Below, piece by piece: positions 32,393 to 36,830 of a stretch of DNA of 39,836 nucleotides. Below the pieces are notes generated by a model that was not told where the DNA came from, did no database searches, and was given only the letters and a program-made list of their open reading frames with translations. Source of the stretch: Treponema sp. (GTDB taxonomy: Bacteria; Spirochaetota; Spirochaetia; Treponematales; Breznakiellaceae); NCBI GenBank assembly GCA_031258225.1, contig JAIRND010000168.1, forward strand, positions 1 to 39,836, written 5' to 3'. The position numbers were made by a program, and so were the translations under genes. How positions within the stretch are numbered: the first letter of the stretch is position 1; each line of letters begins with the position of its first letter.

Positions 32393-33934
32393 TTACATCA
32401 GGGGGGCAAAGAGCCGCAGGGCGTCGGGGATAACCCGCTGGACTATGGTACGGGCGCAGTCCTTGGGCGTAATTTCGTGGCAGAGGGGCAGGGTGTTAAG
32501 AAAGTCCTCCTTAACGGCCATTATGCTCCGGTTGTGGTACAAAACCACCCCGCATTCAAAGTGCAGGTACAGGCTGCGGAAATCCAGATTGGTGGTGCCT
32601 ACCGTGGCTACCCGGTCGTCGGATACAAAGGTCTTGGAGTGGTTAAAACCGTTGGTATACTCGTAGACCCTTACCCCCGCGCTGATAAGCTGCCGGTAAT
32701 ACGAGCGGGACGTAATGGCCACAATTTTTTTGTCCCAGCGGTGGGGCGTAATAATCCGCACGTCCACTCCGCTCTTTGCCGTCAGCGTAAGGGCGGAGAT
32801 AATATTATCGTCCACTACAAGGTAGGGAGTATTGATGTACACATAATCCCGCGCGTTGTTGATAATCTGAATGTACACGTGTTCTCCCACGTGTTCAGTG
32901 TCAATGGGACTGTCCGCGTAGGGCTGGACAAACCCGTCGGATTCTACCGGACAGCCGTCCTTCCAGGGGTACAGGGCCGGATACTGTTCGTTCCGCCAGG
33001 GTTCCATGTTCCACATCTGGAGGAAGATAAGGGTAAGGGACCAGGCCGCTTCTCCCCGCAGCATAATCGCGGCGTCTTTCCAGTGTCCAAAACGTTCCAC
33101 GATGTTGATATACTCGTCCGCAAGGTTAATGCCGCCGGTAAAGGCCGTCTTCCCGTCAATGCAGATAAGTTTGCGGTGGTCCCGGTTGTTTTGCAGGGAA
33201 GAGAGTATGGGCCTGAAGGTGTTAAAGACGATGCACTTGATTCCCTTCCGGTCCATTTGGTCGATAAAATTTGGGGGCAGGGACATGAAGCACCCAAGGT
33301 CGTCGTAGATAAGCCGTATGTCAAGACCGTCCCGGGCCTTACGTTCCAGAATTTCCAGGATGGAGTCCAGCATCTGCCCCTGCCTGATGATAAAAAATTC
33401 CAGAAAAATGTAGCGTTCCGCTTTTTCCAGTTCTTCCAGGACCTTTTTGTAAAAAGCCTCCCCGGAGGGCAGGTATTCCGCCTGGGTATGCCGGTAGATC
33501 GGGAATCCGGCGTATTTCTGCAGGTAGCGGGCCTGGGGAAGAAAATCCAGGCTTTCCGCCGGCAGGGAGGGGAGGATGTCACCGGGAAGATAGAAATACT
33601 CCTCGCTCCGGCGTCTTGCCTGTTCCGAATAGCGGCGGAGCTTGCGGGGATTGGAGTTAAAGAGAAAGATGATGTACAGGATACCGCCAAAGATGGGGAT
33701 GAGCAGGATAAGGAAAATCCAGGTTAGTTTGTAGGCGGGCTTTTCAACTTTATTAAGGATGTACACGCATACAATAATGCTTAACACCTTAAGTGCCCAG
33801 TTGACGTAGAGAAACAGTATGCTGGAACCGGCAATCAGCGACACCAGAAAACCGATCTGGAGCAGCAGCGCGCCCGCCACAAGAAACCGGCGGCGGAACA
33901 CCACCCGCGCCCAGGGATTTTTTATGCCGGCCAT
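32393..33934 (-). CDS. cls: Cardiolipin synthase (PLD family)
   Basis: N-terminal TM helices, two HKD-type motifs (DHRKLICIDGKTAFTGGINLADEY; NHSKTFVSDDRVATVGTTNLDFRSL). ATG at 33934 (MAGIKNPWARV) preferred over the upstream ORF start. Confidence 0.93.
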   Translation of the reverse strand: MAGIKNPWARVVFRRRFLVAGALLLQIGFLVSLIAGSSILFLYVNWALKVLSIIVCVYILNKVEKPAYKLTWIFLILLIPIFGGILYIIFLFNSNPRKLRRYSEQARRRSEEYFYLPGDILPSLPAESLDFLPQARYLQKYAGFPIYRHTQAEYLPSGEAFYKKVLEELEKAERYIFLEFFIIRQGQMLDSILEILERKARDGLDIRLIYDDLGCFMSLPPNFIDQMDRKGIKCIVFNTFRPILSSLQNNRDHRKLICIDGKTAFTGGINLADEYINIVERFGHWKDAAIMLRGEAAWSLTLIFLQMWNMEPWRNEQYPALYPWKDGCPVESDGFVQPYADSPIDTEHVGEHVYIQIINNARDYVYINTPYLVVDDNIISALTLTAKSGVDVRIITPHRWDKKIVAITSRSYYRQLISAGVRVYEYTNGFNHSKTFVSDDRVATVGTTNLDFRSLYLHFECGVVLYHNRSIMAVKEDFLNTLPLCHEITPKDCARTIVQRVIPDALRLFAPLM

Positions 33935-34581
33935 TTTCCCGCTCCTTGCCGGATAACACGTACCTCGTCTTCCGTCATGTCCAGAACCGTTGAAAAAATA
34001 CGGGGTTGACTTTCGTCCCCGGAAATAATCATATCCAGACTCTCGATGGATTCCAACTCCCAATCCGCCTCAAAAAGATCTTCCTCCGGAATGTCCGCCG
34101 GCCCGTTCCCGCCTTCCCGGTCTCCTCCCGGCCCCGCCATATCCCGCTTCGCGGTTATCGAGTACAGGGGAGAACCCAGGGCCCTGATCAGAGCCCGCGG
34201 TATGGGATGATCGGGAATACGGATCCCCACTTCCCGGCGGCGTATGTCAAGGCTCTTTTCCGTGCCCGGAAGCGTTTTAAGGATAAAGGTGTAGGGCCCC
34301 GGGGACAGCCGCTTGATAAGCCGGAAACGGGTGTTGTCCATGCCGCACAGTTCCCCAAACTGGGAAATATCCGCGCACAGCAGAGTAAAATGCCGTTCAT
34401 CCCGCTCCCGCGAAAGGGACTTGAGGTGTTTTATTCCCACCTTTGAGGCAAGCGAACAGGTTAAGGCCCAGCTTGTGTCGGTGGGCAGCGCCGCAAGGCC
34501 CCCCCGGTTAAGCAGGTTAACCGCCCTTGCCACAACCCGGTCGTCGATGTTTTCCGGAGTCACGTATTCAATCATGCCCAC
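33922..34581 (-). CDS. YrdC/YciO-family (Sua5/TsaC-like) protein
   Basis: LNRGGLAALPTDTSWALTCSLASKVGIKHLKSLSRERDERHFTLLC; LSPGPYTFILKTLPGTEKSL; VGIRIPDHPIPRALIRALGSPLYSITA. Confidence 0.85.
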   Translation of the reverse strand: MGMIEYVTPENIDDRVVARAVNLLNRGGLAALPTDTSWALTCSLASKVGIKHLKSLSRERDERHFTLLCADISQFGELCGMDNTRFRLIKRLSPGPYTFILKTLPGTEKSLDIRRREVGIRIPDHPIPRALIRALGSPLYSITAKRDMAGPGGDREGGNGPADIPEEDLFEADWELESIESLDMIISGDESQPRIFSTVLDMTEDEVRVIRQGAGKWPA

Positions 34582-34712
34582 TGCCCCTGATGCGCCACTT
34601 CCACATTATATCACAGTTATGTTATCTTTTCTATACGAAAAACTGGTCCGGATGTATGAGAATTCATACGTGCGGGCTCCGCCGTTGAAAGGCCCCGGAA
34701 TTCCCGGTGTTT

Positions 34713-34739
34713 GTAACTCCTTATGCCATAAGGAGTTAC
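34713..34739. promoter_or_regulatory. Perfect dyad GTAACTCCTTAT-GCC-ATAAGGAGTTAC
   Basis: 12-bp perfect arms with 3-nt spacer, read directly, about 27 bp upstream of the -24 element. Confidence 0.9.
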
Positions 34740-34765
34740 GGAATCGCGGCGGCGTCCGGCCAAAC

Positions 34766-34782
34766 TTGGCACGGAATTTGCA
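34766..34782 (+). promoter_or_regulatory. Sigma-54 (RpoN) -24/-12 promoter TTGGCACGGAATTTGCA
   Basis: Exact match to YTGGCACGrNNNTTGCW with GG-N10-GC spacing, 42 bp upstream of the ATG at 34825. Confidence 0.88.
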
Positions 34783-34824
34783 GTATTATACTGGACCTGT
34801 TGAAGAACTCGTCCGGAGGCGATT

Positions 34825-35688
34825 ATGACAAGCGTAAAACGGAACGGGGAAGGCGCTCAAGAACTTAGCGTTCTTCAGACCTATTTCAACCAGATCAAGG
34901 CAATTCCCCTGTTGAGTTTTGAGGAGGCACTGGAGTTGTCCAAGCGGATTCAACAGGGCGACAAGGATGCCCGCCGCAGGCTTATCGAGGCCAATCTGCG
35001 TTTGGTCATTAAAATTGCCCGCGCCTACGCGGCCAGCGGCGTTCCGCTTATGGACCTTATTCAGGAAGGGAACCTGGGGCTTATCCGGGCGGCGGAAAAG
35101 TACGATCATTCCAAGAATGTCCGTTTTTCCACCTACGCCAGTTGGTGGATTCGCCAGTCCATTTCCCGCTTTATCTCCAACAAACAGCGGGTCATCCGTC
35201 TGCCCCACCGGAAAGAGGTACTGCTCTACAAGATACGGAAGGCATATCAGGCCCTTAGCCAGACCCTTATGCACCAGCCCAGGCTTGATGAAATAGCCGA
35301 CTACCTGGGGCTCCCGGTGGCAGAGGTGGAGCGGCTTATCAAGGCGGGTAACGGGGCCATTTCCCTGGAAATGGACGCCGGACCCGATGAATCGGTGGCC
35401 ATTGAGGACCTGCAGGAGGATTACACCTACAATCCCGAACGGGCCTTCCTGCGCAAGAGCGCCCGTGCCGATACAATCCGGTTTTTGAATATGCTCAAAG
35501 ACAGGGAAAAGAAAATACTGATGGACCGGTATCAGCTTAACGGCTGTGAAGATCGTACCCTTAAAACCATCGGGGACAAGATGGGGATTTCCCCGGAAAC
35601 GGTTCGCCAGATCGAGATTAAGGCCCTGAAGAAGATCAGGAACCATGCGGAGGAACTGCGGGCCGCCGTCTACAACGAGGCGATCTAA
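34825..35688 (+). CDS. RNA polymerase sigma factor, RpoD/RpoS-type (sigma-70 groups 1/2-like)
   Basis: LIEANLRLVIKIARAYAASGVPLMDLIQEGNLGLIRAAEKYDHSKNVRFSTYASWWIRQSISRFI and TLKTIGDKMGISPETVRQIEIKALKKIR; short, no large region 1.1. RBS GGAGG upstream. Confidence 0.95.
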   Translation: MTSVKRNGEGAQELSVLQTYFNQIKAIPLLSFEEALELSKRIQQGDKDARRRLIEANLRLVIKIARAYAASGVPLMDLIQEGNLGLIRAAEKYDHSKNVRFSTYASWWIRQSISRFISNKQRVIRLPHRKEVLLYKIRKAYQALSQTLMHQPRLDEIADYLGLPVAEVERLIKAGNGAISLEMDAGPDESVAIEDLQEDYTYNPERAFLRKSARADTIRFLNMLKDREKKILMDRYQLNGCEDRTLKTIGDKMGISPETVRQIEIKALKKIRNHAEELRAAVYNEAI

Positions 35689-35709: not shown

Positions 35710-35739
35710 ACCGGCGGGTTTTTCCCCGCCGGTTTTTTT
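35710..35739 (+). terminator. Rho-independent terminator ACCGGCGGG-TTTTTC-CCCGCCGGT-TTTTTT
   Basis: 9-bp perfect GC-rich stem plus U-tract, 22 bp after the sigma factor stop codon. Confidence 0.93.
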
Positions 35740-35759: not shown

Positions 35760-36830
35760 ATGAAGATCCTGGGTGTTGAATCCTCCTGCGATGAATGTGC
35801 CGCCGCGGTGGTGGAGGACGGCAGGACCATACATTCCAGCGTTGTGAGTACGCAGATACCCATCCATGCCGTTTATGCCGGCGTGGTCCCGGAACTGGCA
35901 AGCCGTAAACATACCGAATGGATTTACGCGGTGGTACACGAGGCCCTGACCGGCGCGGGCTTGGGCCCGGGGGACATTGACGGAGTCGCCGCTACCTCCC
36001 GGCCCGGCCTTTTGGGTTCCCTCCTGGTGGGCCTTAGCTTTGCCAAGGCCTTTGCCTGGGCCCGGAACCTGCCCTTTATCGCGGTGAACCACATGCTGGC
36101 CCATCTCTACGCTTCCCGGCTCGAAAACGCGCCCCGCATCGCGCACGGGGGGGCGGACGCCGGGCTTCCCGCCTCTCCCCCCCCGTACCCCTTTTTGGGG
36201 CTCCTGGTTTCCGGGGGACACAGCCTTATCTGCCGGGTGGATGATTTTGACAACATCACCGTGCTGGGGACGACAATTGACGACGCGGTGGGGGAGGCCT
36301 TTGACAAGGTTTCCACGTACTACGGCTTTGGCTACCCCGGAGGGGCGGTAATCGACAGGCTGGCCCGGAAGGGGGATCCATACGCCTTTAACTTCCCCCT
36401 GCCCAATCTGCGCAAGGGGCAGCATCCCTACGACGTATCCTATTCGGGGCTTAAAACCGCGGTGATAAACCAGTTGGAGCGGTTTCGCCGCGCCGGCGCG
36501 GGGGTGAAAGAGGACGAGGGGGCCGACATTGCCGCGTCCTTCCAGCGTACCGCCGTGGAGATACTGCTCCGCGCCCTTTTCAGGGCCGCCGATGATACCG
36601 GACTCCGCGTGATTGTGGCCGGCGGCGGGGTGGCGGCCAACTCCTTCCTGCGGGAACGGCTTGCCGCCCGTTCCGACCTGCGCTGCGTCTTCCCCCCCCT
36701 GGAACTGTGCGGCGATAACGGCGCTATGGTGGCCGGTATCGGCTTCCGGTACCTGGCCCGGGGGGAAACCTCGCCGCTTACCGTAAGCGCCTCTGCCCGC
36801 GTGGAGGGCTTTAAGCGCGCGTACCCTTAG
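35760..36830 (+). CDS. tsaD: tRNA N6-adenosine threonylcarbamoyltransferase
   Basis: MKILGVESSCDECAAAVVEDG; SRKHTEWIYAVVHEAL; VNHMLAHLYA; GLLVSGGHSLI; VIVAGGGVAANSFLRERL. Confidence 0.97.
   Translation: MKILGVESSCDECAAAVVEDGRTIHSSVVSTQIPIHAVYAGVVPELASRKHTEWIYAVVHEALTGAGLGPGDIDGVAATSRPGLLGSLLVGLSFAKAFAWARNLPFIAVNHMLAHLYASRLENAPRIAHGGADAGLPASPPPYPFLGLLVSGGHSLICRVDDFDNITVLGTTIDDAVGEAFDKVSTYYGFGYPGGAVIDRLARKGDPYAFNFPLPNLRKGQHPYDVSYSGLKTAVINQLERFRRAGAGVKEDEGADIAASFQRTAVEILLRALFRAADDTGLRVIVAGGGVAANSFLRERLAARSDLRCVFPPLELCGDNGAMVAGIGFRYLARGETSPLTVSASARVEGFKRAYP

Follow-up and report, generated by a model that had tools for sequence, protein, structure and literature searches.

An RpoS-family sigma factor gene behind a conserved RpoN promoter in a treponeme, a probable layer of an old spirochaete cascade

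Background

The closest described system to the locus analysed here is the HK2-Rrp2-RpoN-RpoS cascade of Borrelia burgdorferi. There is dispute over where Borrelia RpoS (BB0771) came from and even over its identity (PMC6719511, section 23), and its residues R121/K122 have been proposed to stand in for the K173 of other RpoS proteins (PMC6719511). In Treponema denticola, RpoS has been reported missing, and induction of the sigma factor TDE0937 is 2.8-fold on heat, 21.8-fold on oxygen exposure and 14-fold on osmotic downshift (PMC2965109). The PAS domain of Hpk2 in the same species senses oxygen, and Rrp2 there is predicted to be an enhancer-binding protein (EBP) (PMC12070737). A review of Leptospira sigma factors describes L. 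interrogans as being without RpoS (PMC12655853). We found no description of an RpoN-RpoS cascade outside Borrelia in the open-licence literature searched; an earlier account elsewhere is possible.

Here we describe a sigma factor gene in a 39.8-kb window, by which we mean the whole stretch of DNA that was analysed. An initial annotation had likened the gene and its upstream region to the Borrelia cascade. Our main reading, to which we assign a probability of roughly 0.85, is of an old spirochaete cascade in which one layer is an RpoN promoter driving an RpoS-type sigma factor, an orthologue of Borrelia RpoS.

The sigma-54 promoter and its conservation

The features of the locus are as follows.

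33922..34581, minus strand: tsaC/Sua5-like gene, the divergent neighbour (TIGR00057 above cut-off; the same neighbour is found in many family members)
34713..34739, no strand: 27-bp dyad, a putative operator or upstream activator site (exact inverted repeat, centre about 67 bp 5' of the predicted start)
34767..34782, plus strand: sigma-54 (RpoN) promoter, -24 TGGCACG and -12 TTGCA (12/12 consensus)
34793, plus strand: predicted transcription start, approximate
34815-34819, plus strand: ribosome-binding site GGAGG, a good match seen in the sequence
34825..35688, plus strand: clade A sigma factor (spirochaetal RpoS family), 287 aa (Pfam regions 1.2, 2, 3 and 4; in clade A with Borrelia RpoS)
35710..35739, plus strand: intrinsic-terminator-like hairpin with T run, ACCGGCGGGTTTTTCCCCGCCGGTTTTTTT, in the interval between sigma gene and tsaD (read from the sequence)
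35760..36830, plus strand: tsaD (TIGR03723 above cut-off), a syntenic marker common with the Borrelia rpoS locus

The initial annotation had placed a -24/-12 element with GG-N10-GC spacing, TTGGCACGGAATTTGCA at 34766-34782, 42 bp upstream of the sigma gene, and its coordinates are correct. The 16-mer TGGCACGGAATTTGCA (34767-34782, plus strand) matches the consensus TGGCACGN4TTGCW at 12 of 12 positions, with GG at 34768-34769, ten intervening bases and GC at 34780-34781. It is the sole 12/12 site in the window; the remaining GG-N10-GC sites on both strands of the whole 39.8 kb reach 9/12 at most. The box is separated from the ATG at 34825 by 42 bases, and transcription is predicted to begin near 34793, about 12 nt past the -12 GC, because this is the usual spacing. 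No sigma-70 promoter was found on the plus strand of 34560-34840. Since the hairpin and T run at 35710-35739 lie between the sigma gene and tsaD, the sigma gene is probably transcribed alone, as its own transcription unit.

Conservation of the -24/-12 element in orthologous upstream regions, which the initial annotation had made a test of its proposal, extends across the phylum. Orthologues were drawn from 80 contigs, 60 family genomes and 247 phylum genomes, and a box was counted if it matched at least 10 of 12 positions with GG and GC intact and lay no more than 200 bp 5' of the gene. Such boxes precede 109 of 118 genes of clade A, compared with 5/1180 other windows, 4/1180 Markov shuffles and 3/31 non-spirochaete relatives. 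Related genomes are counted here as if they were independent; inherited neutral sequence is nevertheless an unlikely cause, because the orthologues range from 37 to 100% identity and are spread over many families. Conservation is the most decisive evidence for the box, and on these sequence comparisons the predicted RpoN promoter at 34767-34782 is real and strongly conserved.

A second group of short spirochaete sigma factors, clade B (L002 on G000:C182 in the host genome, and L191-L210), has a sigma-54 box at 29 of the 38 genes examined; that of the host gene L002 is TGGCATGGTTCTTGCA. Outside the spirochaetes, boxes of 11-12/12 were seen 5' of related sigma factors at three proteobacterial MAG or contig loci (L107, L109 and L113), hinting at RpoN-to-sigma control there as well. 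E. coli rpoH also has an upstream site matching the sigma-54 box.

Relation of the sigma factor to Borrelia RpoS

At 287 aa, the window sigma factor differs from an RpoD, which has region 1.1, a long non-conserved region and a length of about 580-620 aa, and the Pfam domain search placed no region 1.1 in the window protein. Its best NCBIfam match is TIGR02394, the gammaproteobacterial RpoS, at 249 bits against a cut-off of 378.7; TIGR02392 (RpoH) matches weakly, at 172 of the 323 bits required. A phage search gave no match to the gene. It resembles gammaproteobacterial RpoS in size class, domain make-up and its character as a stress-type group 2 sigma factor, but stands on a separate branch and carries ETVRQ in place of ERVRQ at the -35-recognition residues. 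The first description as RpoD/RpoS-like should be amended: the gene belongs to a spirochaetal RpoS family distinct from the gammaproteobacterial one.

The family f6 genomes are inferred from position and neighbours to be Borrelia, as G100 is to be T. pallidum and G202 to be T. denticola. In several f6 genomes the sigma match lies near 813 kb, in G256 Rrp2-HK2 lies about 7.5 kb from it, and flagellar genes are found upstream. The best f6 matches to the window sigma factor have 40-42% identity and an upstream box, TGGCATGATTTTTGCA or TGGCACAATTTTTGCA. Gene order is also common to both groups: sigma gene, PF04748 gene (divergent polysaccharide deacetylase) and tsaD follow one another on the same strand in inferred Borrelia and in many treponemes and other spirochaetes, and in most relatives, as in Borrelia, tsaD lies 3' of the sigma gene on the same strand. 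In the window the PF04748 gene is missing and tsaD comes directly after the sigma gene.

One residue signature of region 3.0, P[HY]RKE, and one of region 4.2, S[PAS]ETVRQ, are common to clade A and Borrelia RpoS; in the window protein they read LPHRKE and SPETVRQ. In RpoD, clade B and proteobacterial RpoS, the -35-recognition helix has T[RK]ER[IV]RQ in place of S[PAS]ETVRQ. A K173-type lysine, first suggested as an RpoS mark by a phmmer alignment, is not supported by the multiple alignment: most clade A proteins have E or D in the K173 column (the -13C contact), directly preceded by RK. The window protein likewise has no K173 equivalent in strict alignment, RK standing one and two residues before as in Borrelia, and R121/K122 of Borrelia RpoS appear to be the RK of the P[HY]RKE motif.

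The sigma phylogeny, another check proposed at the outset, places clade A and Borrelia on one side of a branch with SH-aLRT 92, rising to 98.6 when the small clade A2 is included; clade B forms its own group (99), and proteobacterial RpoS lies elsewhere. AU tests leave standing a grouping of Borrelia RpoS with clade B (p 0.36) and one with RpoD (p 0.12), because the Borrelia branch is long. Orthology to Borrelia RpoS therefore rests on synteny and signatures more than on the tree; together with the tree branch, these support the window gene as an orthologue.

Sigma and sigma-54 genes of the host genome

The host genome (2.6 Mb, 254 contigs) is estimated to be 76.5% complete, and its closest named relatives are Treponema MAGs, which we read from their isolate names as termite-gut genomes. 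Five sigma-70-family loci were identified in it: the window gene, the second short sigma factor L002, two RpoD-related loci (L003 and L004) and one of FliA/WhiG type (L005). A full-length RpoD was not found in this 76.5% complete MAG; a separate 587-aa RpoD ORF is present in one genome of the same genus. A larger RpoD had been left to be looked for in the initial annotation, and with this ORF and five loci in the host the window gene is not the sole sigma factor.

The second gene left to be looked for, rpoN, is present in the host (PF04552 match, 458-aa ORF), as it is in 243 of the 247 spirochaete genomes. The host also encodes two genuine sigma-54 activators, L115 (GAF-AAA+-Fis) and L116 (receiver-AAA+-Fis), and a histidine kinase gene adjoins L116. 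The genome further has two genes of the Fur family, to which BosR, a co-regulator in the Borrelia cascade, belongs; their presence does not imply BosR identity or action at this promoter.

Using as the Rrp2 query a protein of an inferred Borrelia genome (L309), we found one orthologue in each spirochaete genome compared for EBPs, at 50-57% identity and nearly always with an adjacent kinase; the next class begins at about 42%. The host orthologue is L116, one-to-one with Borrelia Rrp2 at 55.5% identity and with its kinase alongside. In another spirochaete genome (G062), an HK2-Rrp2 pair lies directly 5' of a clade B sigma gene (L302). A different kinase-EBP pair is directly 5' of a clade A sigma gene in G039 (L222, G039:C1:112500-118500) and is a candidate dedicated regulator of that gene.

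The parallel that the initial annotation drew with the Borrelia Rrp2-RpoN-RpoS cascade is supported by rpoN, the Rrp2 and kinase orthologues, the conserved box and the orthologous sigma factor, and is probably strengthened to homology. B. burgdorferi and the treponeme are alike in the box 5' of the orthologous sigma gene, in the single Rrp2 orthologue with adjacent kinase and in rpoN, and the downstream order of PF04748 gene and tsaD in Borrelia is that of the family. They differ in that the treponeme, from a termite gut as we read it, has a conserved phased dyad (Borrelia has none), a second sigma-54-driven sigma factor (clade B) and, in the host MAG, tsaD directly after the sigma gene.

The 27-bp dyad

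A perfect 12-bp dyad had been reported just 5' of the box, and GTAACTCCTTAT-GCC-ATAAGGAGTTAC is indeed exact at 34713-34739, its arms lengthening to 13 bp when the first G and last C of GCC are included. No perfect inverted repeat in the window is longer (the next is 10 bp), and 100 shuffles gave no chance match. The search for it in the genome and in relatives proposed alongside showed that it is conserved and recurs within genomes, in the form GTAATTCCTTAT-N3-ATAAGGAATTAC. A symmetric weight matrix trained on clade A promoters (GTAATTCCTTATAATATAAGGAATTAC) scored at least 12 at 67 of 113 clade A promoters against 0.27% of shuffles, and at 13 of 29 clade B promoters against 0%; clade B is the cleaner test, given that training set. 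Of the 67 clade A promoters having the dyad, 51 have it at -52 to -55 from TGG.

In a composite search of 120 family genomes for the dyad followed, at any gap from 20 to 50, by a -24 box, 92 matches were found in 57 genomes, and the reversed control gave 0. The gaps fall into three groups (26-29, 33-39 and 42-49) with one match at 24 and none at 20-23, 30-32, 40-41 or 50; the groups are about one helical turn (~10.5 bp) apart, and our earlier position data agree. Phased gaps are the pattern expected when an activator has to face the polymerase, and the dyad's spacing points to, but does not prove, a site for such an activator on one DNA face. The initial annotation had left open whether the dyad was an EBP or a repressor site; of the two, an activator fits the phased spacing better. 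A palindrome in helical phase with the -24 box is also what is seen at upstream activator sites of EBPs, and the dyad resembles the enhancer sites of NtrC or PspF in being a phased palindrome 5' of -24 with a presumed activator. It differs from them in its 27-bp length, in its consensus and in occurring also at tRNA 3' ends and dnaA.

We read 31 of the composite units, which precede clade A sigma genes (9, gaps 26-28), clade B sigma genes (8), hsp20 (10), glutamine synthetase III (GSIII; 1), a membrane protein without Pfam match (2) and no clear gene (1). Loci with dyad and box include hsp20 (L356, L362-L365 and L269-L270), GSIII (L357) and the membrane protein (L355 and L359), and these genes are candidates for a regulon in common with the sigma genes.

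Dyad copies number about 10-60 per termite-treponeme genome. They lie 4-55 bp 3' of many tRNA genes (16 loci), several of these copies adjoining tyrosine integrase genes, and 5' of dnaA and dnaN (L277, G029:C1:134; L271, G039:C1:1837), positions close to the likely replication origin. Further copies are 5' of genes that have sigma-70 promoters and encode outer-membrane-like proteins. Most of the non-sigma copies (tRNA 3' ends, dnaA) have no adjacent sigma-54 box. In two genomes, similar membrane protein genes have the dyad 219 bp (L125) and 142 bp (L289) upstream, again with no sigma-54 box, possibly as a conserved target at another promoter type.

Pairing between the dyad halves is at the level of shuffled sequences, and their covariation is no better than in shuffles, which argues for a dimer-type DNA site and not an RNA hairpin; the site is also upstream of the promoter. 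A terminator of a neighbouring gene does not account for the dyad either: the neighbours are divergent and 34560-34840 holds no terminator-like site. No dyad was found in Borrelia, in inferred T. pallidum (G100), in G065 or in G212, all of which have Rrp2, and this distribution does not support Rrp2 as the binder. Nor is Fur/BosR supported: Fur-family genes are present whether or not a genome has dyads, and in G044 dyads occur with no Fur match. Borrelia BosR binds other sequences, TAAATTAAAT (PMC3037356). From the distribution of the dyad, its putative binder is probably a global DNA-binding protein and not Rrp2.

Alternative explanations

Two alternatives concern the dyad. With the sigma-54 promoter taken as real, the dyad might be a repressor operator or belong to the divergent tsaC gene, which its place between divergent genes and its form, a perfect palindrome being a usual repressor operator, would suit (that it is clear of the sigma-54 box can be listed here too). 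We regard this as unlikely, since the dyad also precedes clade B, hsp20 and GSIII promoters with other neighbours and keeps a ~10.5-bp phase to -24 over three turns; neither a repressor nor an unrelated promoter would require such phasing. It is similarly improbable that the dyad is one copy of a dispersed palindrome (REP-like, an integration site or a tRNA terminator) and is here by chance. The copy number of about 10-60, the many copies shortly after tRNA genes and those beside tyrosine integrases speak for this, but a fixed, phased position by sigma-54 boxes in dozens of genera, the presence of the dyad at orthologous promoters in other families and the lack of covariation beyond chance, as in a dimer-binding site, speak against it.

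The other two concern the sigma factor and its link to Borrelia. The Borrelia RpoN-RpoS link could be independent and the treponeme arrangement convergent; AU tests leave the Borrelia position open, and sigma-54 control of sigma factors may occur elsewhere, as at the E. coli rpoH site and the boxes of the three proteobacterial relatives. However, the common gene order and the signatures of regions 3.0 and 4.2 count against convergence, as does the box, which nearly every intervening lineage has, and with synteny and box retained in the intermediate spirochaete lineages it is unneeded; we consider it very unlikely. Least credible, and in our view extremely improbable, is a constitutive housekeeping or heat-shock (RpoH-like) sigma factor with an incidental box. 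The lack of a full-length RpoD in an incomplete host MAG and the weak TIGR02392 match would agree with it, but the protein has no region 1.1 and falls well short of the RpoH score (172/323 bits), a separate 587-aa RpoD exists in the same genus, the plus strand of 34560-34840 has no sigma-70 promoter and the box is conserved. We thus retain the reading of an RpoN-driven orthologue of Borrelia RpoS.

Proposed mechanism and significance

In the proposed mechanism, a PAS-type histidine kinase would phosphorylate an Rrp2-type response regulator (receiver, AAA+, Fis-type HTH), and this EBP would open sigma-54 RNA polymerase held at 34767-34782. Transcription would then start from about 34793, and the sigma product would redirect polymerase towards a regulon for stress or host adaptation. 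Help from the same helix face may come from a dimeric activator bound to the dyad (34713-34739), either an EBP or a separate co-activator. Rrp2 as the activator here, the signal, the regulon and the activating role of the dyad protein are predicted parts of this scheme.

A lead on function comes from clade B. In inferred T. denticola (G202), the clade B sigma gene L229 adjoins groES and has an upstream dyad and a degenerate box, TAGCATAGTTTTTGCT; it matches TDE0937, which by its locus number also lies next to groES. The host genome has the corresponding clade B gene in L002 with its sigma-54 box, and TDE0937 is a paralogue, not an orthologue, of the window gene.

The HK2-Rrp2-RpoN-RpoS layout is present here and across spirochaetes, which indicates an ancient, phylum-wide system and not a Borrelia invention. 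New relative to the known cascade would be its phylum-wide extent, its two sigma factors and the phased dyad. A wider proposal, which we hold tentatively and at somewhat less than even odds, is that the spirochaete ancestor had a sigma-54 cascade to clade A and B stress sigma factors, that the Lyme cascade is what is left of it in reduced form, and that in termite treponemes a global dyad protein serves as a face-specific activator (both sigma factors, hsp20, GSIII) while also occupying tRNA ends and the region upstream of dnaA.

Placing BB0771 in a spirochaete-wide RpoN-driven family with common synteny would give a concrete answer on its disputed origin, and suggests an older stress cascade as the source from which the virulence cascade of Lyme Borrelia was adapted. 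Treponemes, in which RpoS was reported missing (PMC2965109), gain candidate stress sigma factors with testable promoters, and a conserved phased dyad comes to light as the site of a putative binding protein.
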